A stretch of DNA of 64,000 bases, from positions 620,001 through 684,000 of the forward strand of contig JAILWO010000002.1 in NCBI GenBank assembly GCA_025698895.1, written 5' to 3'. Shown here one piece after another: positions 1,493-48,746 of the stretch (its first letter is position 1; each line of letters begins with the position of its first letter). Position numbers and translations under genes: made by a program. The DNA is from Rhizobiaceae bacterium (GTDB lineage: Bacteria > Pseudomonadota > Alphaproteobacteria > Rhizobiales > Rhizobiaceae). The notes under the pieces were generated by a model. The model was not told the origin of the DNA. It was given only the letters and a program-made list of their open reading frames with translations, and ran no database searches.

Positions 1493-1585
1493 TTGCTCAC
1501 TCCACGATCACGGTCAGGCTTGCACTGGCCGCATCCATATCCGAACCCTACTGACGGCAACCTGTCAGGAGCCGGTCTCGAAAAT

Positions 1586-1927
1586 TCAGTCCGCGGCGCG
1601 CACCTCGATCGTGCCAGTTCTGGCAAGCGGGATGCCCTCCGCCAGACGCAGCGCCTCCGCCTCGTCGCTGGCCTCCACCAGGATGAAGCCGACCAGTTGT
1701 TCCTTGGTTTCGGCAAAGGGACCGTCCACGACGGTCGCACGGCCCTCGCGCACGCGAAGCGACTTCGCCGACGAGACGCCGCCGAGCGCATGGGCGACCA
1801 CCAGATGCCCCTTGGCCTCCAGCTCACGATCATAGGCAAGCGAGTCTTCGGTCAGCTTCTTGAGCTGGGCGGAGGTGTATCGCGCGAAGGCTTCGGGCGT
1901 GTGGTAGACGAGGCAGACATGGCGCAT
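1586..1927 (-). CDS. YCII/DGPF-domain protein
   Basis: A 113-residue cytosolic protein of the YCII-related superfamily (DGPF subgroup), starting MRHVCLVYHTPEAF. It carries the signature VVDGPFAETKEQLVGF near residues 65-80. The same signature occurs in the protein encoded at 18440, next to an ECF42 sigma factor. The ATG at 1927 is chosen over in-frame upstream starts because GGAGGACC lies just before it. Proteins of this group are frequent ECF42 targets and their biochemical role is largely unknown. A candidate ECF promoter lies 34 bases upstream. The next gene downstream is the DHA2 exporter, possibly co-transcribed, although a small hairpin (1551-1568) lies between them. Confidence 0.85.
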   Translation of the reverse strand: MRHVCLVYHTPEAFARYTSAQLKKLTEDSLAYDRELEAKGHLVVAHALGGVSSAKSLRVREGRATVVDGPFAETKEQLVGFILVEASDEAEALRLAEGIPLARTGTIEVRAAD

Positions 1928-1961
1928 TTCTTCGGTCCTCCAGCGTGGCCTGTGACCCGAG

Positions 1962-1988
1962 GACGACGGATGCCGACCGGAACCGACA
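1962..1988 (-). promoter_or_regulatory. Candidate ECF42-type promoter
   Basis: On the minus strand TGTCGG (1988-1983) is followed after exactly 17 bases by CGTC (1965-1962), 34 bases before the YCII start. The same two blocks with the same spacing precede the second YCII gene at 18440. They resemble the TGTCGA / CG(A/T)C elements reported for ECF42 sigma factors. The assignment is inference from two matching sites. Confidence 0.5.
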
Positions 1989-2105
1989 TTCATGGAACCG
2001 GCTGGATGAATGGCGTGCCCGTGACGTGAGACCTGCCGACCGGGCCGTCGGCGACGTCGCGATCAAATCGCCGCTCGCGCCCGACGTCCGGACATTGGTG
2101 GCTGT

Positions 2106-2657
2106 TCAGAAGGCGAAACTGGCTTGGGCGGGGTTCCGGTTCGGAGATGTCGCGTTCTCGAGGGCAAGCAGGCGGGACTTTGTCGCCGAGCCGCCTGGCG
2201 CGGAGAAGCCTCCGATCTTGCCGCCGGCGGCCAGGATGCGGTGGCACGGGACGATGATCGGCACCGGGTTCCTGCCCAGCGCCTCGCCCGTTTCGCGCGC
2301 CATGCCCTTGTGGCCGGCGGCCTCGGCCAGCCCGCCATAGGTCGTTGTCTCGCCGTGGCCGAGCCGGCGTGCCGCCGACCAGATCGCCAGCCGGAACGGG
2401 TCAGCCGAACCGAGATCGAGCGGAACGGCGGAGAAATCAACGATCGCGCCGGCGCAATAGGCCCTGAGCAGCCCGGCCGCCTCGGCGGCGAAGCCGTCCG
2501 GCTCGCATTCGGTCGAACCGGCGAGCCCCTTTAGCAGCCGCGCACGCACGGCCTCCCGGTCGCCTCCGGGTATCTGCACGCGGCAGACGCCCCGGTCTGT
2601 CCAGGCAAGCCCGGCCCAGCCGAGGGCCGTGTCGATCATCGCGTGATGCGTCGCCAT
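2106..2657 (-). CDS. ogt: Methylated-DNA--protein-cysteine methyltransferase
   Basis: Suicide DNA-repair protein that transfers alkyl groups from O6-alkylguanine to its own cysteine. The C-terminal half has the canonical active site IVPCHRIL, with the accessory GGFSAPGG loop and the DNA-binding stretch ETTTYGGLAEAAG. 183 residues from MATHHAMIDTALG, the usual length for Ogt/MGMT without an Ada domain. Start 2657 is chosen because the family N-terminus begins there; upstream in-frame residues look non-coding. It converges on the broken monooxygenase gene only at the 5' side (divergent starts). Single-gene unit, no operator seen. Confidence 0.9.
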   Translation of the reverse strand: MATHHAMIDTALGWAGLAWTDRGVCRVQIPGGDREAVRARLLKGLAGSTECEPDGFAAEAAGLLRAYCAGAIVDFSAVPLDLGSADPFRLAIWSAARRLGHGETTTYGGLAEAAGHKGMARETGEALGRNPVPIIVPCHRILAAGGKIGGFSAPGGSATKSRLLALENATSPNRNPAQASFAF

Positions 2658-2816
2658 GGGCGGAACATAGCCGAAACAGGCGAAGGCGGACACCCGAAAC
2701 GTGATCTTGCACGAAGGTACAAACGACGCTCCTGCCAAATCATGCATGATCGGCTGGCTTCCGTTGCGGGAGGAGATCGCGACGGCGGCCTGCAGCAACA
2801 CGCCCGGGAGGAAGCA

Positions 2817-4600
2817 ATGTCAGCCAACGAAGCCGTCAAGACCTGGCTCGCCGCCTTCGAGAAGGCGCTCGGTTCCGGCGATCCGGCCGCGGTTTCGAAG
2901 CTCTTCGGCGAGGAGAGCTACTGGCGCGACCTCGTCGCCTTCACCTGGAACATCAAGACGGTGGAAGGAGCGGAGGGCGTCGAGGATCTGGTCAGGAATA
3001 CCGCCGCGCACACGAAGGCCTCGAACTTCCGGCTCGACGGCGATGCCAGCGAAGCCGACGGGGTGACCGAAGGCTGGTTCACCTTCGAGACGGGCGTGGC
3101 GCGCGGCTATGGACTTGTCAGACTCAGGGACGGCAAGGCCTGGACCCTGCTGACCACCATGGTCGAACTGAAGGGGCACGAGGAGAAGGCCGGCTTCACC
3201 CGCCCGCTCGGCGCCAAGCACGGCCACGGCGTCGGCACGAAAAGCTGGCGCGAGGAACGCGACGAGGAACTGGCCACGCTCGGCCACACGAAGCAGCCAT
3301 ATTGCGTCATCATCGGCGGAGGGCAGGGCGGCATCGCGTTGGGCGCGCGGCTGAAGCAGCTCGGCGTGCCGACGATCATCGTGGAGAAGAACGAGCGGCC
3401 CGGCGATTCCTGGCGCAAGCGCTACAAGTCGCTGTGCCTGCATGACCCGGTCTGGTACGACCATCTGCCCTATATCGATTTCCCGAAGAACTGGCCGGTC
3501 TTTTCGCCGAAGGACAAGATCGGCGACTGGCTGGAAATGTACACCCGCGTGATGGAGCTCAATTACTGGGCATCCACCGAGGCCCTGAGCGCGAAATATG
3601 ACGAGCAGGCGAAGGAGTGGGCGGTCGTCGTCAGGCGCGACGGCAAGGAGATCACGCTGAGGCCCAAGCAGCTCGTCTTCGCCACCGGCATGTCGGGCAA
3701 GGCAAACGTGCCGCAATTCCGGGGGATGGAGAAGTTCCAGGGCGACCAGCACCATTCCTCGCAGCATCCCGCCCGGACCAGTACAAGGGCAAGAAGGCGG
3801 TCGTCGTCGGCTCGAACAACTCCGCCCACGATATCGCCGCCGCGCTCTGGGAAGCTGGCGCGGACGTGACCATGGTGCAGCGCACCAGCACCCATATCGT
3901 GAAGTCCGACACGCTGATGGAGATCGGGCTGGGCGCGCTCTATTCGGAGGAGGCGGTCCAGAACGGCATGACGACGGCCAAGGCCGACCTGATCTTCGCC
4001 TCGCTGCCCTACCGCATCCTGCATCAGTTCCAGATCCCGCTCTACGAACAGATGAAGGAACGGGACGCAGACTTCTACGAAGGGCTGGAGAAGGCCGGCT
4101 TCATGCTGGACTGGGGCGAGGACGGATCGGGCCTGTTCATGAAATATCTGAGGCGCGGCTCGGGCTACTATATCGACATCGGCGCCTCGCAGCTCGTCAT
4201 CGACGGCAAGATCAAGCTTGCCACCGGCCAGGTCGAGGAAATCACCGAGGATGCAGTGGTTCTCGACAACGGGACCGAAATTCCCGCCGACCTGATCGTC
4301 TACGCGACCGGCTACGGCTCGATGAACGGCTGGGTGGCCGACCTGATCGACAGGGAGACCGCCGACAGGGTCGGCAAATGCTGGGGCCTCGGCTCCGACA
4401 CCCGCAAGGACCCCGGACCATGGGAAGGCGAGCAGCGCAACATGTGGAAGCCGACGCAACAGGAGGCGCTGTGGTTCCACGGCGGCAACCTGCATCAGTC
4501 CAGGCACTATTCGCAGTTCCTGTCGCTGCAGCTGAAGGCGCGCATGGAGGGCATCCCCACGCCCGTCTACGGGCTGCAGGAGGTGCACCACACCGGCTGA
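2817..4600 (+). pseudogene. Flavin-containing monooxygenase, interrupted by a -1 frameshift
   Basis: NAD(P)H/FAD monooxygenase of the group B (YUCCA-like) type with an N-terminal SnoaL-like segment (about residues 1-130). The FAD site VIIGGGQGGIALGARL lies near residue 165, and the NADPH site VVVGSNNSAHDIAAAL lies after the break. Reading frame is lost near 3769-3771: the sequence runs ...HHSSQHP then out of frame, while restoring one G would give HPGPDQYKGKKAVVV. Downstream sequence is intact to the stop at 4600, giving about 594 residues if repaired. Either a recent null mutation or a sequencing error in the CCCGCCCGG tract. ATG 2817 follows GGGAGGAAGC. Substrate unknown. Confidence 0.75.
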
Positions 4601-4750
4601 GGATCTGATCCGGAAGCGCGCCGGCGGGTCGTGAACGGCGGTCCGCCGCGCTTCGGTGCTGTCCCGGTCCGCGAAAAGCCGCGGCGTCGCCATGCTTGCG
4701 CCCGATTTGGCCGGCTTTGTCGCGGTTCGAAACGATCCGGAGAGGGCCTT

Positions 4751-5452
4751 TTGGCCGCACGCATACTGATTCTCGCCGCCACGGCCGGGCTGGCGCTCTC
4801 GGCCTGCACGACCTCCGACGTGCTCCTGCCCGAGACCGCGCTGGCGCCCCAAACGCGGCCCGCCGACGACGCCACGCCGCTCGACGGGCTGATCGCGCAT
4901 TACGCCGACCACTATGACGTGCCCGAAACGCTGGTGCGGCGCGTGGTCAAGCGCGAGAGCAATTTCCGGCCAGAGGCGCGTAACGGCCCCTATTACGGCC
5001 TGATGCAGATCCTGCCGCAGACCGCGCGCACGATGGGCCATGACGGTCCGCCGTCGGACCTGCTCGACGCCGGAACCAACCTGAAATATGCGGTGAAATA
5101 TCTGCGCGGCGCCTACATGGTGGCCGACGGCGATCACGACCGCGCCGTCAGGCTCTACGCGTCCGGCTATTATTACGACGCCAAGCGCAAGGGCATGCTG
5201 GTGGCGACCGGGCTGAAGCCCGGACCCGAGGCGGGGGAACCGGAGACGGCCGTCGCGGAAGCGACCGAGCCGCGGGAACCGGAGACCGCCGTCGCGGCCA
5301 CATCCGACCCGCAGGAGCCCCAGACGACTGTCGCGGCCGCGCCCGAAACGGCGCCGGCGCCCGGTATGGAACCCGCGTTTCAGCCGACCGCCGCCTTCGC
5401 CGGCCCGACGCCCACCGCCCGGCCCGGCGAGGCCACGCCCGCCTTCAATTGA
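4751..5452 (+). CDS. Lytic transglycosylase-like (SLT) lipoprotein
   Basis: Predicted outer-membrane or periplasmic lipoprotein that cleaves peptidoglycan glycan strands. A TTG start at 4751 preceded by GGAGAGGG gives a lipoprotein signal peptide ending in LALSAC (lipobox, Cys about residue 18). The SLT core holds the catalytic-Glu context VVKRESNFRPEARN, then YYGLMQILPQTARTMG and LKYAVKYLRG. The C-terminal third is a low-complexity tail with repeated PETAVA-like units rich in Pro, Glu, Ala and Thr, probably a linker to the cell wall. 233 residues. A longer ATG-initiated version from 4631 would bury the lipobox, so it is rejected. Confidence 0.85.
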   Translation: MAARILILAATAGLALSACTTSDVLLPETALAPQTRPADDATPLDGLIAHYADHYDVPETLVRRVVKRESNFRPEARNGPYYGLMQILPQTARTMGHDGPPSDLLDAGTNLKYAVKYLRGAYMVADGDHDRAVRLYASGYYYDAKRKGMLVATGLKPGPEAGEPETAVAEATEPREPETAVAATSDPQEPQTTVAAAPETAPAPGMEPAFQPTAAFAGPTPTARPGEATPAFN

Positions 5453-5519
5453 ACGTGAAGGCGGCGCCTGCGGGTGCGTCGACCTTGGTTTCGCCGCGGA
5501 CCGCGGCTAACCGGCCCTC

Positions 5520-6521
5520 ATGAACCGACGCAGCCTTCTCGCCCTGCCGCTGGTCGCGGCCTTTCCCGCCACGCTTCGCGCGCAGGACTATTCGCCCGAC
5601 CTGTCGACGGTGATCGACGAGGCCGGCCGGCTCGATCCGCTCAAGGCGGTGATGGTGGCGCGCGGCGGCGAGGTGCTGGCCGAGCGCGGCTATCGCGGCC
5701 ACCGCGTCGACGGCTCGACCAACATCAAGTCGGCCTCCAAGGCCGTCATCTCGGCGCTGGTCGGCATCGCCATCGAGCGCGGCGTGCTCGACGGCGTCGA
5801 CCAGACGATCGCGCCGATCCTGAAGGCCGACCTGCCCGCCGATCCCGACCCGCGCATTCACGACATCACGATCGGCCATCTTCTGTCCATGCGGGCGGGG
5901 CTTGGCCGCACGTCCGGCCCGAATTACGGGCGCTGGGTGTCGAGCCGCAACTGGGTGCGCGCGGCACTCGCCATGCCCTTCGACGACGAGCCGGGCGGGC
6001 GCATGCTCTATTCGACCGGCTCCACGCATCTGCTCTCGGCGATCCTGACCCGGCTGACTGGCCGGACGACGCTGGAACTGGCGCGCGACTGGCTGGAGCC
6101 GGTGGAGGATTTCCGCATCACCGCCTGGGAGCGTGACCCGCAGGGCATTTATCTCGGCGGCAACCAGATGGCGATGTCGACGCGCTCGCTGGCCGCCTTC
6201 GGCCGGCTCTATCGCGACGGCGGCCGCGCCGGCGGCGAACAGGTCGTGCCGGAAGCATGGATCGCCGAAAGCTGGACGCCGCGCACGCGCTCGGTGTGGA
6301 GCGGCGACGGCTATGGCTATGGCTGGTTCCTGCGCGAGATCGGCGGCCACGACATGCGCTATGCCTGGGGCTATGGCGGCCAGATGCTCTATATCGCGCC
6401 GGCGCTCGACCTCGTCATCGCCATGACGTCGGAGGAAAACAACCCGTCGGCCCGCACCGGCTATCGCGACGCGCTGCACCGGCTGGCCGGCGCGATCGCC
6501 CAGGCGGTCGAGACGGTCTGA
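5520..6521 (+). CDS. Exported serine hydrolase, beta-lactamase/class C family
   Basis: 333-residue penicillin-binding-protein-like hydrolase. A signal peptide (MNRRSLLALPLVAAFPATLRAQ) points to the periplasm. The active-site motif SxxK is seen as SASK near residue 77; a tyrosine motif YSTG occurs near 161, and GYGYGWFLR with YAWGYGGQM near the C-terminus fits the third box of the family. Such enzymes act as esterases, D-amino-acid peptidases or beta-lactamases; the substrate here cannot be told. It starts 67 bases after the transglycosylase gene and could share its transcript. Confidence 0.85.
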   Translation: MNRRSLLALPLVAAFPATLRAQDYSPDLSTVIDEAGRLDPLKAVMVARGGEVLAERGYRGHRVDGSTNIKSASKAVISALVGIAIERGVLDGVDQTIAPILKADLPADPDPRIHDITIGHLLSMRAGLGRTSGPNYGRWVSSRNWVRAALAMPFDDEPGGRMLYSTGSTHLLSAILTRLTGRTTLELARDWLEPVEDFRITAWERDPQGIYLGGNQMAMSTRSLAAFGRLYRDGGRAGGEQVVPEAWIAESWTPRTRSVWSGDGYGYGWFLREIGGHDMRYAWGYGGQMLYIAPALDLVIAMTSEENNPSARTGYRDALHRLAGAIAQAVETV

Positions 6522-6623
6522 CAAAGGCGGCGGACGGTTGCGCGTCCGCTCCGAACCGCTCGTTGCAAATTGCGACGCGAACGGTCACACGGCCTTAAGG
6601 TGCCGCGTGCTTGAAGCCTTGCC

Positions 6624-7193
6624 ATGAGCAAGAAGAAGCCCGCCGCTCCCGCGAAAACGCCTGCCGCGAAAGCCGCCGACACGACCGAGCAGCCGAAGAA
6701 GCGCTCGGTGCTGACGCTGGCGCTGCTGGTCGTCACGCCGCTGGTGCTGGCCGGCGGCGGCTTCGCCGGCTGGACATTCTTCCTGACCGACAAGGCGGGC
6801 GGCGAGGCGCATGCCGGGGCGGCGGCGGACGGCCAAGCGGCCGGCGAGGGCGGTTCAGCGGGCGAGGCGATGCTCCACACATCGGCGCTGCCGCCCGAGA
6901 TCGCGGCCGAGACCTCCTTCACCTATTCCTATGCGCTGGGCGAACTGCTCGCCGAACGCTGCGGCCGCCTGCGCCTTTCGGCCTTGGCGGCGGCCAGCGA
7001 GGCCGAGGCGAAGGCCGACGGCATGCTGGTCCATCTGTCCTGGCAGGCGGCCCACCGGCGCACCCTGACCGTGACCGCGCGCTCCTGTGACTTCCTGCGC
7101 GCCGAAATCTACAGCGCCGAAACCCGCGCCGCGCGCAAGGCCGAGGAGGCGGAGGCGGCGGAAGGGAAGGGCGGCAAGACGGCGGGGCATTGA
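6624..7193 (+). CDS. Single-pass membrane protein of unknown function
   Basis: 189 residues. A basic, Lys/Ala/Pro-rich cytoplasmic N-terminus (MSKKKPAAPAKTPAAK) is followed by one transmembrane helix near residues 29-53 (VLTLALLVVTPLVLAGGGFAG). The periplasmic part has two cysteines (ERCGRL, ARSCDF) that could form a disulfide, and ends in a charged Ala/Glu/Lys tail. I do not recognise the family. High-GC codon use matches the neighbours, so it is native rather than part of the AT-rich island that follows. Confidence 0.7.
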   Translation: MSKKKPAAPAKTPAAKAADTTEQPKKRSVLTLALLVVTPLVLAGGGFAGWTFFLTDKAGGEAHAGAAADGQAAGEGGSAGEAMLHTSALPPEIAAETSFTYSYALGELLAERCGRLRLSALAAASEAEAKADGMLVHLSWQAAHRRTLTVTARSCDFLRAEIYSAETRAARKAEEAEAAEGKGGKTAGH

Positions 7194-7243
7194 GGGAGAG
7201 GGTGCGGCGGGGGCTTCGGCCGGGCGCTATCCCTCCCCTTGCG

Positions 7244-7427
7244 GGAGAGAATTTCGACAGCTTAGCCGAGCCCGCCGGAGGCGGTCTTTGCGAGGCTAAG
7301 TGTCAGAAATCGCAAGAGAGGGGACTTGAAGCACGCCGATACCCCCTCTCTTGGATTTTCTATGGCTTAGCCTTGCTTGCTTCCGGAGCCCGGCGGTCTC
7401 GGGCGCTCGGCTAAGATCATGAAAATC
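7244..7427. repeat. Long imperfect palindrome with nested stem-loops
   Basis: The intergenic region 7194-7580 has no gene but is highly structured. The 30-base arms 7294-7323 and 7343-7372 pair at most positions (GGCTAAG...AAGAGAGGGG against CCCCTCTCTT...CTTAGCC). Each arm is flanked by another CTTAGCC/GGCTAAG pair (7261-7267 with 7294-7300, and 7366-7372 with 7409-7415). The two halves read as inverted, diverged copies of an about 85-base unit. It resembles a MITE-like or rhizobial intergenic mosaic element. Confidence 0.6.
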
Positions 7428-7430
7428 CCT

Positions 7431-7451
7431 TCTCCCCCGCCGAGGGGGAGA
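7431..7451. repeat. TCTCCCCC/GGGGGAGA palindrome
   Basis: Perfect 8-base arms (7431-7438 and 7444-7451) around a 5-base loop. Similar elements occur at 9710-9730, 9795-9817 and 45937-45961. They look like the rhizobial RIME-type intergenic palindromes. This copy lies just left of the AT-rich two-gene island. Confidence 0.55.
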
Positions 7452-7580
7452 TAGGGCGCTCGTCGCTCGCCGCCTCACGCGATCGCTTTCTACCTAGCCC
7501 AGAGGGGAAGGTGATGAAGGCCGGCGCGCGCCGGCCAGAGGCGGGCGACTAGTGAGCAAGGTTGAGGGAAGCTACAATCA

Positions 7581-8570
7581 TTGACCAAATACGAGTTGGA
7601 ACGCTATGAACATTTCATGAACACTTTGCGAAAAAATGGTTCCGCCGTACGGGCAGCGGGCGAGCGACAGCTCGTTCAAAAACTAATGAACACAAAGGCT
7701 TTTCAGCGTTTGCGCGAAGTCTCTTTCTTAGGGTCTATAGATTATTATAATCTTCATCACTCCAGGTCGAATACATGGAACTTCAGTCGATCCGATCACG
7801 TGCTCGGAGTTCTTGAGCTAGCTAGATGTCTGCTCAATAAGATAGCGTTTAGTGAAGAGGAGCGCTACCTAATCATCTCCGTGGCAATCTGTCATGATAT
7901 GGGACATAGCCCATTTTCTCATAGCACCGAAAACGTATATAGAAAACTCAATCCAGCAATAGACCATAAAGCCGTCCTGGAAATTGTGCTTCTTGACAAC
8001 TCTATGGGAGTTTCAAAAGTCTTAACAGATTTCAATATAGACGTTAGCAAGGTAATATCAATTAGCATAGGTATTGACAATAATCTTAGCTGGATATTTC
8101 ACAATCCTATAAATATAGATACTCTGGATGGAATGCAGAGATTCCTATTGTCTTTCAGGTTGCCGCCCCCCTTCAATGCCAGGCAAGCGGTAGAATCCGT
8201 TGCGTCTCTCTTTCTTGGGAATCGAAATCTCTCTAAGAGAGAAGTAGAGAATCTGGACAATTTCTGGAGGGTAAAAGGTGCATTCTATGATCAATTTCTG
8301 CAACGGGGGAAATATGCCGAATTTGAGAGGGCGTACATGTCCTTTCTGACGTCTAAAAAGAAATTCATAGATGCCGGTGATTATCTAAAAAGGGACAATG
8401 AACTGGCGGAGGAGATTGGGCTCCTTCCCAGTTTGGGAGCAGAAGGGTTTTCAGTGCCGTCAAAGACCGATATGCATCAGGCAGCAAGATTCCATATAGA
8501 TTCGAGCGTTAAGCTTCATTCTATAGCTGATCTCTATGTGCGATATGGTCGCGGCAAGGGGGCGAAATGA
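7581..8570 (+). CDS. SAMHD1/dGTPase-like HD-domain phosphohydrolase
   Basis: 329-residue predicted metal-dependent nucleotide hydrolase. After an opening FQRLREVSFLG (compare the dNTPase QRLR motif) come the first metal His in SRSDHVLGVLELA, the HD pair in AICHDMGHSPFSH (the SPFSH ending is typical of SAMHD1 and its bacterial relatives) and a late Asp in NIDTLDGMQRF. The start is TTG at 7581 with GAGGGA about 11 bases upstream; the next in-frame ATG is 7617. Codon use is strikingly AT-rich (for example 19 of 60 G/C at 8041-8100), unlike the flanks, so it was probably acquired. It overlaps the nucleotidyltransferase gene by ATGA and must be translationally coupled to it. Substrate unknown: dNTPs, or a nucleotide made by the partner. 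Confidence 0.75.
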   Translation: MTKYELERYEHFMNTLRKNGSAVRAAGERQLVQKLMNTKAFQRLREVSFLGSIDYYNLHHSRSNTWNFSRSDHVLGVLELARCLLNKIAFSEEERYLIISVAICHDMGHSPFSHSTENVYRKLNPAIDHKAVLEIVLLDNSMGVSKVLTDFNIDVSKVISISIGIDNNLSWIFHNPINIDTLDGMQRFLLSFRLPPPFNARQAVESVASLFLGNRNLSKREVENLDNFWRVKGAFYDQFLQRGKYAEFERAYMSFLTSKKKFIDAGDYLKRDNELAEEIGLLPSLGAEGFSVPSKTDMHQAARFHIDSSVKLHSIADLYVRYGRGKGAK

Positions 8571-9517
8571 ATGTAGTGGATTTGGACAGCCGTTTTGAAA
8601 ACCTAAAAAGAGCCTTTCGTGCGTCCGAAGAGAAGTTGGAGAAACTTGCGGCGCTGAATGACGAATATGGTAGCTCGGGAAGCTGCTTGATCGTTAACGG
8701 CTCTTTAGCGCGCAAAGAACTGGTGGATGGATCGGATTTCGACTCGTTTGTGGTCCAGGCAGGTCGGGCGGAGTTAGCGAATGAGCTGTCGCGGAAGGCC
8801 TACGAAATTGCTGGCTTGAAGGAGCCAGGCTCGAGCGGCATCTTTGGCAATGATAGCACTGTGCTCGCTGAGGAAATGCTCCGCAACATTGGGGGTATGT
8901 CAGATTCAAACGAGAAGATAACGCAAAGAATGCTTCTTATTCTTGAGTCTGCTGCGTTCGGTGATATGAATATCTACAATAATCTGGTAGATTCTATGCT
9001 TGCTCGATATATATCTGATAAGATTACCGATCATCAATTGGGACTATTTTTACTAAATGACGTTATTAGATATTACAGAACGATATGCGTCGATTTCGAG
9101 TTTAAGACAGAGGAGGGCAGAAAGCCTTGGGGAATTAGAAATATTAAGTTGGTGTTTTCCAGAAAGCTAATATATTTCTCCGGACTTATCATTTGTGCTG
9201 AGATGGGTCAGCGGACAGCCGCTGAAAAAAGATCAATTTGTCGACGGCTTTTGTCATTAACACCTATCGAAAGGATGCTTGTTGTGTTGAGAGAGGATGC
9301 GTTAGAGCCTCTTGCTTACTACGATAAATTTTTAGAGAAGATGTCAGACAAAGATATTAGAGAGCAATTGAAGAGTGAAGATCGGGAGAAACTTAGGAGT
9401 AGCGAGCTCTTTAGGTCATTGAAAAATGACGGACATCATTTCACTTGGGCACTCAGAAGCGCTTTTAATCGTCACTATGACAGCACGCATCCGATTCACA
9501 AAGCCATAATGTTCTAA
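8567..9517 (+). CDS. Putative nucleotidyltransferase (GS...DxD fold), partner of HD protein
   Basis: 316 residues. The N-terminal domain shows the Pol-beta nucleotidyltransferase signature: VNGSLARKEL followed by SDFDSFVV (GS-x10-DxD, residues about 44-60). The C-terminal half is helical, with a conserved-looking block YYRTICVDFEF...GIRNIKLVFSRKL, reminiscent of DUF294-like uncharacterised nucleotidyltransferases. It has the same AT-rich composition and the same transcript as the upstream HD phosphohydrolase (4-base overlap). It could add a nucleotide to a protein, RNA or small molecule, or make a signalling nucleotide; the sequence alone does not decide. A C-terminal RSAFNRH resembles a HEPN RxxxxxH motif but this is weak. 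Confidence 0.7.
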   Translation: MNVVDLDSRFENLKRAFRASEEKLEKLAALNDEYGSSGSCLIVNGSLARKELVDGSDFDSFVVQAGRAELANELSRKAYEIAGLKEPGSSGIFGNDSTVLAEEMLRNIGGMSDSNEKITQRMLLILESAAFGDMNIYNNLVDSMLARYISDKITDHQLGLFLLNDVIRYYRTICVDFEFKTEEGRKPWGIRNIKLVFSRKLIYFSGLIICAEMGQRTAAEKRSICRRLLSLTPIERMLVVLREDALEPLAYYDKFLEKMSDKDIREQLKSEDREKLRSSELFRSLKNDGHHFTWALRSAFNRHYDSTHPIHKAIMF

Positions 9518-9641
9518 CTTCGAGGACGGCGCGAGGGTGAACTGTGCGGTTGGAACAAAGGCTCTAAATCCCCCTCATAATATGACAGGATCAGGATGGG
9601 GCTCAGGGTATGCGCCGACGCACGCCGGTTTCTCCTCTCCT

Positions 9642-9707
9642 GCGATTTTTAGCCCTTAACTCGCCAACACCGGCTGTTGACCGGGCTCACTAGGGTGCTG
9701 AAATCGC
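9642..9707. repeat. Imperfect palindrome right of the AT-rich island
   Basis: The arms begin GCGATTTTTAG (9642) and end CTGAAATCGC (9707), with further partial pairing inward (CCAACA with TGTTGA). It contains GCTCACTAG (9685-9693), the exact reverse complement of CTAGTGAGC at 7549-7557 on the other side of the island. The region 9518-9641 holds nothing recognisable. Confidence 0.5.
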
Positions 9708-9709
9708 TA

Positions 9710-9817
9710 TCTCCCCCACAAGGGGGGAGATTGGCAGCTTCGGCGTCGTGCAAGCCTTCGACGTTCGCGCAGCCCCTCACCTGCCTGCCGGCATCCTCTC
9801 CCCGCAAGCGGGAGAGG
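9710..9817. repeat. Pair of RIME-like palindromes
   Basis: Two short GC-rich hairpins, 9710-9730 (TCTCCCCC...GGGGGAGA) and 9795-9817 (CCTCTCCC...GGGAGAGG), belong to the same family as 7431-7451. The remaining sequence to carB (9818-9947) is GC-rich, has no plausible gene, and ends with another CACAAGGGGAGAAGG fragment. Confidence 0.5.
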
Positions 9818-9947
9818 AATGCCAATCGCGGACGCCGCGCTCCGTCCTGCACCCCTCATCTGACCTGGGGTTGCGCCCCGTGCCACCCAGGGTGGAGCCG
9901 CGCGTCTCCGCCCGTCCTTCGGACCCCACAAGGGGAGAAGGACAAGC

Positions 9948-13433
<3,486 letters not shown>

Positions 13434-46737: not shown

Positions 46738-47568
46738 CTAAACCTGTCGAAGCTCGTCTATAAAATCATGGAGCACTTCGTCGAGGTTGGCGTAGATCTT
46801 CGTACTTTCGAAATGTGCTTGGAGATCGGCTGTGATTTGTGTGGGTGTTCTGGCGTCTTCGGTGGTCTGAGCCGCCCATGCTCTACCTGGGTGCAGCGTA
46901 TCCCAAGGTGAGCGCTTGTTTCCGCGCGTTTCCGCGCTGTCTCCATGTTTACCTAGCCCGTAAAGAATGTTTGTTTCGGAGTTCCAAACTGGCCGGAACA
47001 AGTGAATGAGGAAATCCTCGGCAGCAGATTCCCAACCGCTCTGCACGACAAGAGCACGGTACTCGAAGTCGTCGATGTTCAGCGTACCGGTCGCTTTCGA
47101 AATATTGCTTCGGTGATCCCGAAGGCGCCGAGCGAGCCGATCTCCCTGTTCCATGGCCGTGCGAGCGTTGCTCATCGCCGGGGCTGCTTGGCCCACATAG
47201 ATTGGCGTTTCGCTTCGCGTGATCGGCGCATAGCTTGGAAACGAGCCATTATAGTAGATGGCGTATACGCCCGACCCATAGAAGGCCTCCACTCCCTTGA
47301 GTAACTGACGCGGTTGGGCGACCAAAGCAAGCGAGATAAAACGACCGACTACCTTTGGGTTGCTTGGATCAAAGACGGCAGCAGGTTGGCGAATCGGATC
47401 AAGCTCATGGAGCAGTCTTCCTAGTTCGGCCATTAGCTCACGCAGCTGTGCGTCCAGTTGCTTGCGTCTTCGAGGTGCTAGCGGTGAACTAGTGGCTTCG
47501 GCGGCCAGGTCGGCCAAATCCTGCCTAAGCTTCTCGGCTGCGGTTTGTCGGAACTTTGGCGTCTTCAT
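46738..47568 (-). CDS. GIY-YIG restriction endonuclease, Eco29kI-like
   Basis: 276-residue type II restriction enzyme. The GIY-YIG core shows GSGVYAIYYNG, ETPIYVGQAAP, the Arg/His helix DRLARRLRDHRSNI, the metal Glu in WESAAEDFLIHLFRP and the closing PVWN. These match the Eco29kI/NgoMIII group, which cuts CCGCGG; specificity here is inferred. A N-terminal helical extension makes it longer than Eco29kI. ATG 47568 overlaps the methyltransferase stop by 4 bases. Base composition is lower in GC than the flanks (32 of 60 at 46981-47040). Confidence 0.88.
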   Translation of the reverse strand: MKTPKFRQTAAEKLRQDLADLAAEATSSPLAPRRRKQLDAQLRELMAELGRLLHELDPIRQPAAVFDPSNPKVVGRFISLALVAQPRQLLKGVEAFYGSGVYAIYYNGSFPSYAPITRSETPIYVGQAAPAMSNARTAMEQGDRLARRLRDHRSNISKATGTLNIDDFEYRALVVQSGWESAAEDFLIHLFRPVWNSETNILYGLGKHGDSAETRGNKRSPWDTLHPGRAWAAQTTEDARTPTQITADLQAHFESTKIYANLDEVLHDFIDELRQV

Positions 47569-48746
47569 TTCAGAAAGTCCGATCCCCCGAAAAGGAGATG
47601 ACGCTTCACGTCGCGGGCGACTATGTTAGCAAGTTCCACGGGGACCGCGTTGCCGAGTTGGCGCATCGTTTCGGTCCACGACCCGTGAAACCGAAATTCG
47701 TCCGGAAAAGTCTGCAACCGTGCGCTCTCCCGCACCGTGAAGTAGCGCACGCTCCTGTCGGCCCTTAGCAACATATTCTCCCCACCCGGAACACCGTGCA
47801 CGCCAGCTTTTAGGGTTTTCGCGGGTTCATCTAGAGGGCTGCCGGTATGGCCGTAGTAGGATCGCGCGCCGGGTTGGAAACGGTGGTTGTGGTATTTTCG
47901 AGATTTTTCCGGCTCAAGCTCGGGGTCCGGCAAATTTCCAATTGCATCACGTGTAGTCCGCCACGGCGATTCCCTCGGGCGCTCGCGAAGTTGACGGAGG
48001 CGTTGCGAGTGGCGATGAGCGATGATGCGATCCCGGTTGCGGACCTCATGCCGCTCCCAATATTCGCCTTTCGCCTGATCCCAAATCAGGGCGTCGAGTG
48101 AGTGCGTTTCCTTTGGAAATGCCCATTCGATGCCTAAGTCTTTCCGAAAGCCGACGAACACCACGCGCTCTCGACGCTGCGGAATTCCATAGTTCGCGGC
48201 ATTTAGCACCCGATACACGACTCGATACTCGAGGCCGGCGGGACCACGGCGGCCGGTATGGTGCATCTCAAGCCGGCAGAGGTGGCTTTCCCAACTCTCA
48301 TCGTCGTCGGCCATGAGCTCGGGATAAGTCAACTGCATCACGATATAGGACAGGTAGGTCGCGAAACTCTGACGGGTCAGTCCCTTCACATTCTCAAAAA
48401 TAAAAGCTCTCGGCTTGGCTTCTCGGACAGCGCGCACCGCCTCGGACCACATGTCGCGAGAATCCGCGTGCGCTCCATGCTTTCCGCCAAGAGAAAAGGG
48501 CTGGCACGGGGGACCGCCAGTAACCAGATCAAGATGGCCTTCGAAAGGCCCAAAGTCCACATTCCGGACGTCGCCTTCGATCGGTTCAGGCCAGTCGCCA
48601 ACCAAGCCTATGCCGGCACCACGGTTCTCCCTAATGGTATCGCAGCACCAACGATCCCATTCCACGATGGCTTGAGGTTTGAAGCCTGCACGGCTGATCC
48701 CCATTCCTAGCCCGCCCGCACCCGCGAACAGCTCGATCGCCTTCAC
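47565..48746 (-). CDS. DNA (cytosine-5)-methyltransferase
   Basis: 393-residue C5 methyltransferase protecting host DNA. Motif I AIELFAGAGGLGMGISRAGF, the catalytic motif IV GGPPCQPFSLGGKHG (Cys nucleophile), motif VI ENVKGL, motif VIII-like IPQRRERVVFVGF, and motif X RQLGNAVPVELANIVA are all intact. It lies between vsr and the Eco29kI-like gene with 4-base overlaps on both sides. No controller (C) protein is seen. Confidence 0.95.
   Translation of the reverse strand: MKAIELFAGAGGLGMGISRAGFKPQAIVEWDRWCCDTIRENRGAGIGLVGDWPEPIEGDVRNVDFGPFEGHLDLVTGGPPCQPFSLGGKHGAHADSRDMWSEAVRAVREAKPRAFIFENVKGLTRQSFATYLSYIVMQLTYPELMADDDESWESHLCRLEMHHTGRRGPAGLEYRVVYRVLNAANYGIPQRRERVVFVGFRKDLGIEWAFPKETHSLDALIWDQAKGEYWERHEVRNRDRIIAHRHSQRLRQLRERPRESPWRTTRDAIGNLPDPELEPEKSRKYHNHRFQPGARSYYGHTGSPLDEPAKTLKAGVHGVPGGENMLLRADRSVRYFTVRESARLQTFPDEFRFHGSWTETMRQLGNAVPVELANIVARDVKRHLLFGGSDFLK

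Follow-up and report, generated by a model that had tools for sequence, protein, structure and literature searches.

The stretch of 64,000 nucleotides analysed here, called the window in what follows, covers positions 620,001 to 684,000 of contig JAILWO010000002.1 from a Rhizobiaceae bacterium (GCA_025698895.1) and carries near its left end two overlapping genes on the plus strand. The first encodes a probable phosphohydrolase with an HD domain (the HD protein) and the second a nucleotidyltransferase (NTase). The two form a pair which recurs in other genomes and which most likely acts as a phage-defence or self-restraining toxin switch, similar in its logic, though not in its parts, to the Clover system. 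The features of the pair, derived from open reading frame (ORF) calls, alignments and, where indicated, reading by eye, are the following.

7581-8570, plus strand: HD gene (gene 1), ORF call, TTG start, 329 amino acids
8567-9517, plus strand: NTase gene (gene 2), ORF call, ATG start, 316 amino acids
8567-8570, plus strand: ATGA overlap, the start codon of the NTase gene lying over the TGA stop of the HD gene
about 8 bases upstream of the TTG of the HD gene, plus strand: AGGGA, ribosome-binding-like, read by eye
7797-7799, plus strand: codon of the metal ligand H73 (49 of 50 alignment rows, one gap)
7893-7898, plus strand: codons of the HD doublet H105-D106 (50 of 50 rows)
8118-8123, plus strand: codons D180-T181, the metal Asp and a family-specific Thr which is Arg in EF1143 (50 of 50 rows each; alignment with 2o6i)
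8699-8743, plus strand: GS-x10-DxD catalytic motif, G45 S46 ... D57 x D59, from the NTase alignment

The pair is the AT-richest part of the window, with a GC content of 0.433 for the HD gene and 0.436 for the NTase gene compared to 0.650 for the window; the 25 segments of lowest GC (951 bp each, in 50-bp steps over the whole 64 kb) all begin between 7450 and 8800. A preliminary description of this DNA had already depicted a foreign-looking, AT-rich island of two genes overlapping by ATGA. Both plus-strand ORFs do share positions 8567-8570, its counts of 19 G/C in 60 bases at 8041-8100 and 43 in 60 at 10441-10500 are exact, and the GC values agree with the foreign look.

The HD protein matches the Pfam family HD (2.1e-7) and, by sequence, SAMHD1 and EF1143, the latter being reached by the HD profile at 5e-24. 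This profile contains the window protein and 49 of the 69 HD ORFs found, leaving out near copies, most Thalassospira sequences, fragments and a fusion; like the NTase profile, composed of the window protein and 57 chosen NTases, it was built in part from genomes later found with it. The structure model (predicted local distance difference test, pLDDT, 90.9) aligns over about 290 residues with 2hek (VIA Z 22.5), 2o6i (22.4) and SAMHD1 (about 21.7), and the fold so predicted is the full SAMHD1/EF1143 fold. The SAMHD1-like HD motif ending in SPFSH of the preliminary description was recovered as HDxGHxPFSH (H105 D106 ... S113 H114), now joined by the whole-fold match at Z of about 21 to 22.5. The form HDxGHxP[FL]SHxxE occurs in 66 of the 67 HD ORFs of at least 270 amino acids, the exception being the fusion, with D for E.

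The metal site and the catalytic histidines are present in the HD protein (H73, H105, D106, H109, H114, H129 and D180), and H114 and E117, which form the HxxE next to the HD doublet, are found in 50 of 50 alignment rows. A phosphohydrolase is the likely assignment from these residues. Two tyrosines, Y236 and Y322, are invariant in the HD profile alignment as well. Following the metal Asp the family reads D-T-x-[ED]-G-x-x-R-[SCT], aligned with D-R-M-D-Y-L-L-R-D in EF1143, and position 188, an Asp in EF1143, is S, C, T, A or F, mostly a small residue and F in the window. We take the replaced positions to be those of SAMHD1 K312, Y315 and D319, which contact the deoxynucleoside triphosphate (dNTP). 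As other conserved residues stand in place of the dNTP contacts, it is doubtful that the HD protein is a plain dNTPase acting as a simple dNTP-depleting effector.

The NTase is barely matched by Pfam (DUF294, 0.019) and corresponds to the PADLOC candidate PDC-M70A (E 2.1e-60, residues 6-302). S46, R49, E51, D57 and D59 are present in 58 of 58 rows of the NTase alignment and G45 in 57, with one gap; of the 88 NTase ORFs called, 87 contain the GS-x10-DxD motif. In the structure model (pLDDT 94.6) the best fold matches, over 246-264 residues, are the C-terminal domain of GlnE (VIA Z 11.8), DrrA (11.8) and the N-terminal domain of GlnE (11.4), all under the value of about 13 below which a match can reflect an arrangement common in helical proteins. 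The remaining listed entries score 6.8 or less and include HalB of Hailong (6.2), MntA/HepT (about 6) and, as weak matches, AadA and kanamycin NTases (about 5.4-6.1). Judged by its best matches, the modelled fold, an NTase domain plus a helical bundle, resembles those of GlnE and DrrA, protein AMPylators which transfer AMP to a Tyr of their target. Attachment of HEPN-type helical domains to GlnE and DrrA is described in passages of PMC3710099. The GS-x10-DxD motif claimed in the preliminary description is thus located at G45 S46 ... D57 x D59, with both aspartates in 58 of 58 rows, and its nucleotidyltransferase assignment, staked beforehand on structure prediction, is borne out by a fold of the GlnE/DrrA type.

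Scanning of genome contigs with a profile yielded 172 NTase relatives; the best 80 of them, ranked by likeness to the window NTase, were examined. At 66 of these 80 loci the same HD family accompanies the NTase, either as a gene within the stretch fetched (65 loci) or as an HD::NTase fusion (one locus), a 691 amino acid protein of Pseudomonas oryzagri with the HD part first (L091, 4846-6921). The figure of 66 includes two loci which rest on fragments at the edge of the stretch (L054, L057) and one with the HD gene on the opposite strand (L017). At 53 of the best 80 loci the HD gene lies directly upstream on the same strand with a gap of at most 200 bp; the adjacency in other genomes on which the preliminary description had made its interpretation depend is therefore not rare. 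The 14 loci without an HD gene in the stretch are nine of Thalassospira and five divergent ones (Sorangium, Hydrogenedentota, Chitinophagaceae), one of which has a TIM barrel gene. In one Thalassospira genome (G267, taken to be that of locus L063, one of the nine without a nearby HD gene) the two genes are found 6.7 kb apart on one strand, so that HD and NTase stay together in the genome even if not adjacent.

Among 385 genomes of the class the HD protein is present in five (at least 286 bits, the next match having 82) and the NTase in all five of these; conversely the NTase is present in six, five of them with the HD protein and the sixth (G128) with another partner. The five HD genomes amount to three lineages, three of the five being of one genus. 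At 1e-10 the HD profile finds 55 of the 385 genomes, 50 of them under 83 bits and taken as other HD proteins. The PADLOC profile is less clean, with ten genomes, of which four reach no better than 1e-4 to 1e-3, compared to six for our NTase profile. Scans of the phylum gave two of 319 genomes each, the window and one genome already found. The pair is rare in the class. Tree distances of HD and NTase proteins are correlated (Mantel r 0.85 for 67 pairs and 0.82 for a thinned set of 49, with none of 2000 permutations as high in either case), a correlation which partly reflects shared species history.

HD and NTase are a real recurring module. That two unrelated foreign genes merely overlap here would fit the other four NTases of the window's own family, none of which has an HD gene beside it, and is hardly credible given 66 paired loci of the best 80, a fusion, the co-occurrence and the tree correlation. 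Chance adjacency was rejected on the pairing counts and on the five out of five co-occurrence in the class.

The partner of the NTase is not always the HD protein, and it may be followed by a third gene. Of the 53 HD-adjacent loci, 16 have a gene clustering with His_Phos_1 directly after the pair; a downstream His_Phos_1 gene is confirmed by Pfam at L058, at L174 and, without HD, at L015, where a plasmid of Rhizobium sp. BT04 carries a distant NTase and then the phosphatase gene. Outside the HD group a TIM barrel gene follows the NTase on two rhizobial plasmids and one Chitinophagaceae contig, and the Mesorhizobium copy is PDC-M70B (2.2e-105; AP_endonuc_2, 2.4e-7). Of 151 genomes from the window's own family, 5 contain the NTase; of the four other than the window (L096, L097, L098 and L099), three have a TIM barrel gene downstream which is PDC-M70B-like by sequence, and one (L098, 781-1437) has an exonuclease-like gene, recognised by eye, 3 bp upstream. 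The window thus represents the HD version of a system which, in this family, more commonly comes with the TIM barrel. As a general pattern the transferase stays constant and its partners, mostly hydrolases, can be exchanged.

Two of these loci show further genes. The surroundings of NTase and phosphatase in Rhizobium sp. BT04 (L015, 1087-11019) comprise glycosyltransferase, AAA ATPase, HAD and MFS genes. The partner of the G128 NTase (L007, 590-1204) is a 204 amino acid protein which contains two HxT motifs and, read by eye, resembles a 2H phosphoesterase; no convincing match to it was found in Pfam or PADLOC.

A constant NTase combined with varying partners (HD, a TIM barrel of the PDC-M70B type, His_Phos_1), as if hydrolases were interchangeable, would also suit a reversal of roles, in which the NTase attaches a nucleoside monophosphate (NMP) to a cell protein, RNA or small molecule, with toxic or regulatory effect, and the HD protein removes the mark. 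There is precedent in GlnD, whose HD domain removes UMP from PII, and the antitoxin-first gene order this would imply is common in toxin-antitoxin pairs. The fold of the NTase, that of GlnE and DrrA at Z 11.4-11.8 before a drop to 6.8, and an HD protein with intact metal site and catalytic histidines from which the dNTP contacts are gone, speak for the same arrangement. Yet in G267 the HD gene is 6.7 kb away from the NTase gene, and a constant NTase with varying partners is also expected if the partner is the effector, CloB homologues being coloured by adjacent effector in a figure legend of PMC12265719. We consider the reversal somewhat unlikely.

The pair is a mobile unit, found in chromosomes, in a tiny plasmid and in a phage-like contig. 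Its GC content is below that of the flanks in 52 of 54 loci, by 8.9 points on average (loci with a pair span of at most 2.6 kb and at least 2.5 kb of flank, near copies included). The E. coli plasmid pISHS7_5 (4,499 bp) consists of the HD gene, which runs across the record start, the NTase gene and, as the only other listed gene, a Rop-like one; the GC content of the HD-NTase part is 0.323 and that of the rest 0.517. A search of 5,426 E. coli genomes with the plasmid NTase found one match, itself. Contig L174 of IMG/VR carries, at 1542-7356, a Zot gene (2.6e-41) and a C5 methyltransferase gene, then an AT-rich cassette of HD, NTase and His phosphatase (4768-7356, in the contig part of 0.29-0.37 GC). 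Zot is the assembly ATPase of filamentous phages. One relative among 41 was obtained when viral contigs were scanned with the NTase profile, none among three pattern matches when they were scanned with the window NTase alone, and no match was found in phage records. A fold search of BFVD gave 208 matches at E≤10 and none at 0.001. Rows from Nitrospira (Nitrospirota) sit among gammaproteobacterial rows on the NTase tree, and in Methylobacterium symbioticum the pair (at C38) has an AbiEii gene (4.8e-36) on one side and an integrase gene (3e-7) on the other.

The best relative of the window pair, in Mesorhizobium sp. B2-7-2 (L016; NTase 67% and HD 50% identity, 27 bp between the genes), likewise adjoins a carB-like gene in an AT-rich island. 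The corresponding gene in the window is the 1161 amino acid ORF on the opposite strand at 9948-13433, the first long ORF on the downstream side of the NTase, which we read as carB from its sequence; upstream of the pair, 6624-7193 is a gene without confident Pfam match. The edges of the island in the window are marked by two short repeats.

7549-7557, plus strand: inverted 9-mer CTAGTGAGC, left copy, on one border of the AT-rich island
9685-9693, minus strand: right copy of the 9-mer (GCTCACTAG), at the opposite island edge

The island ends of the preliminary description, 7549 and 9693, fall on these copies. They are the only two copies in the window and are inverted, compared to 0.16 expected from shuffles (1 of 100 shuffles had at least two). 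The 9-mers hint at an element boundary, a role which is a guess; no copy of CTAGTGAGC was found in the stretches read beside the Mesorhizobium pair. A search with the flanking DNA for an empty site gave short matches only, resembling intergenic repeats, and a promoter and terminator scan found three of each, close to the shuffled means of 2.1 and 2.2. Short GC-rich repeats of the CCCCACAAGGGGGGA and TCCCTCCCCTTGCGGGAGAG types flank the island at 7230-7452 and 9707-9938; they look like dispersed intergenic repeats, since parts of the left flank also match the genomes of relatives. About 37 kb from the pair, at 46738-48746, lies a type II restriction-modification pair whose GC content is reduced (0.55-0.59), matching REase_II (5.5e-27) and the C5 methylase model MTase_II (3.8e-123).

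An accessory metabolic role, in which the NTase would activate a small molecule with NMP and the HD protein, with or without the His phosphatase, would trim phosphates, e.g. in tailoring or detoxification, is very unlikely for a pair carried by a tiny plasmid and a phage-like contig. It would find some ground in the weak fold match to AadA and kanamycin NTases, in the sugar and glycosyltransferase cluster around the distant NTase and His phosphatase of Rhizobium sp. BT04 and in the metabolic genes among the neighbours of the pair, but no biosynthetic family is prominent among the neighbour families listed apart from His_Phos_1 (six genes, with every other listed Pfam family in at most three of 150 genes).

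The reading we tentatively prefer, with less than even confidence, is that of a horizontally moving, self-restraining defence or abortive-infection module, in which the HD protein is an effector restrained by the NTase and released on infection. The HD protein would be a latent, metal-dependent hydrolase which could arrest growth by cleavage of a nucleotide or of a substrate linked to one; plain dNTPs are probably not what it cleaves. In uninfected cells the NTase would act as keeper and use a nucleoside triphosphate to keep the HD protein inactive, most likely through covalent attachment of NMP to it, as MntA does on HepT, or else by making a nucleotide ligand; the covalent modification is slightly favoured over a diffusible nucleotide by the AMPylator fold and by the GS-x10-DxD motif common to MntA. 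Infection would disturb the keeper or its signal, and the HD enzyme would be freed. The module would comprise two genes, and three in some lineages. The observed basis consists of the gene pair with its intact active sites and predicted folds, the conserved pairing, the tree correlation, the fusion and the mobile, defence-leaning surroundings; HD toxicity, restraint by the NTase, phage trigger and substrate are the steps which we infer. The maker and breaker of a nucleotide proposed in the preliminary description may be one of several candidate mechanisms, and on the whole the interpretation given there is borne out in part.

A more specific version is unlikely as a whole: a family of mobile immune switches, new as far as the literature searched here goes, in which a transferase of the GlnE/DrrA type covalently nucleotidylates a hydrolase of SAMHD1 fold to silence it. 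The substrate of the hydrolase would not be dNTPs, and in some lineages a His phosphatase would reset the circuit. If true, an anti-phage effector would be kept in its off-state by protein AMPylation, and the system would travel on plasmids and phages, the transferase remaining constant and the hydrolases around it being interchangeable.

The surroundings of the pair lean towards mobile and defence genes, short of proof. Neighbour genes (150 of 249 scanned, from 46 of 48 loci) match 190 PADLOC models at 1e-8 and control genes (150 of 151, from 20 hand-chosen stretches in ten of the same genomes, some phage-type genes included) match 31, figures which count overlapping models and not genes and of which 25 models are listed per set. 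Among the 25 listed for the neighbours are mad2 (four genes), AbiEi, AbiEii, type I methylase and specificity, pAgo, PD-Lambda-5, SoFic, E2, which is a CBASS part, PDC-M30 and M41, while those listed for the control are mostly models of type II methylases, each having a single member. Pfam finds three integrases and two AbiEii among the neighbours, and neither family is among the 25 of 90 control families listed. In two alphaproteobacteria a DUF5131 gene directly follows the pair (L081, 6957-7787, and L087), the former matching PDC-M41B (5.5e-55) and PDC-M30B.

Several points weigh against the defence module. Besides the counting of overlapping models, the control too holds defence models, namely mad2 (two genes), ThsB, orphan methylase models and PDC-S66, and there are housekeeping and metabolic genes among the neighbours of the pair. 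The ranking of the best 80 loci leans towards the HD-paired window NTase, and the other 92 of the 172 relatives may hold more partners other than HD. Within the window's family only the window NTase has HD beside it, the other four having no HD gene within 1.5 kb, and in Thalassospira the two genes are 0.5-6.7 kb apart in five of six cases examined, unlike a tight toxin operon. The Arg and Tyr of EF1143 are replaced by other conserved residues, T181 (50 of 50 rows) and G184 (48 of 50), and the HD protein could instead be the eraser of the mark set by the NTase.

It remains to compare the pair with known systems. With the SAMHD1 and EF1143 dNTPases the HD protein, of 329 amino acids in the window, shares the whole predicted fold, the HD metal site and the catalytic histidines; it differs in the dNTP contacts, where R/K, Y and D have become T, G and mostly S/C/T, and in being found, in the class scan, only in genomes that also bear the NTase. 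The combination of NTase and HD is also known from GlnD, and the NTase has a GlnE-type fold. In distinction to the single-chain UTase-HD-ACT layout of GlnD, the window pair consists of separate chains of 329 and 316 amino acids, encoded by separate genes, with an HD of the SAMHD1 type and no ACT match, and it is accessory and patchy, not core. The HEPN/MNT system (HepT-MntA) is likewise a two-gene unit with a GS-x10-DxD NTase, possibly modifying its partner. Passages of PMC7641770 define the GSx10DxD motif and report that MntA polyadenylylates HepT. The window NTase is of the GlnE type, however, and at 316 amino acids more than twice as long as the 139 of 5yep, and its partner is an HD hydrolase and not a HEPN RNase with the RX4HXY motif; membership was rejected, as the partner matches Pfam HD and no HEPN or DUF86 at E≤1.

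PADLOC candidate PDC-M70 combines the M70A NTase with the M70B TIM barrel. The window NTase is M70A, but M70B is replaced by the HD hydrolase, which stands upstream and not downstream, and membership was rejected on finding no M70B match of the window HD protein at E≤1. As the partner here is a hydrolase of known catalytic type, a function for the PDC-M70A family comes within reach. In the open-licence PubMed Central literature no paper on PDC-M70 was found and none was recognised on the HD-NTase pair; absence from print is not claimed.

The closest parallel is Clover. Like a Clover locus, the pair is a two-gene operon with an HD phosphohydrolase gene followed by that of a Pol-beta NTase, an overlap between the two and both active sites conserved, and its gene order and overlap match a Clover locus in M. 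symbioticum. That genome has two loci of dGTPase plus small NTase, C25 and C35, separate from the C38 pair. Their coordinates are L145, 2771-5069 (the one tested against the CloA entry), and L146, 2635-5164. The C25 dGTPase matches structure entry 9p8s, which we take to be CloA, at 1.7e-126. At E≤1 the window HD protein does not match 9p8s, even the HD profile giving only 0.011, and for the two CloB-like NTases of M. symbioticum (266 and 281 amino acids) the NTase profile gives E values of 0.097 and 0.28 (database size 1). Clover membership was rejected on these two counts, the HD protein not being a Dgt-type CloA homologue and the NTase profile not matching CloB-like proteins. Accordingly the earlier statement that no known named system is recognised has to be amended, the NTase being PDC-M70A and Clover having the same layout, while it stands in that the pair fits neither.

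In Clover, as described in the 2025 preprint (PMC12265719), CloA, a dGTPase activated by dTTP, is kept inactive by p3diT, the product of CloB, so that an effector of dNTPase fold can be restrained by its partner NTase. The legend of Figure 1 in that source colours CloB homologues by adjacent effector and includes M. symbioticum SB0023/3. Strict signalling of this kind, in which the window NTase would make a diffusible nucleotide, e.g. a linear dinucleotide, that inhibits a dNTP-depleting HD effector, is quite unlikely: the same logic and layout as in PMC12265719, the full SAMHD1 fold and H114 and E117, kept in 50 of 50 rows, speak for it, but the dNTP-contact positions are replaced, the NTase profile does not match CloB-like proteins and the predicted NTase fold is of a protein-modifying type.

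By sequence the pair is not Clover and works at most like it. Its parts, unrelated to those of Clover, are arranged in a Clover-like way around an NTase which is a PADLOC candidate, with a third gene added in some lineages and a fusion occurring naturally. Whether an anti-phage effector is controlled by protein AMPylation could be tested cleanly with it, and the ready-made pair on the E. coli plasmid makes laboratory tests easy. If the preferred reading of a self-restraining defence module is true, the pair would be a second build of the Clover idea, with a SAMHD1-type hydrolase in place of the Dgt-type one and a GlnE/DrrA-type transferase in place of CloB.

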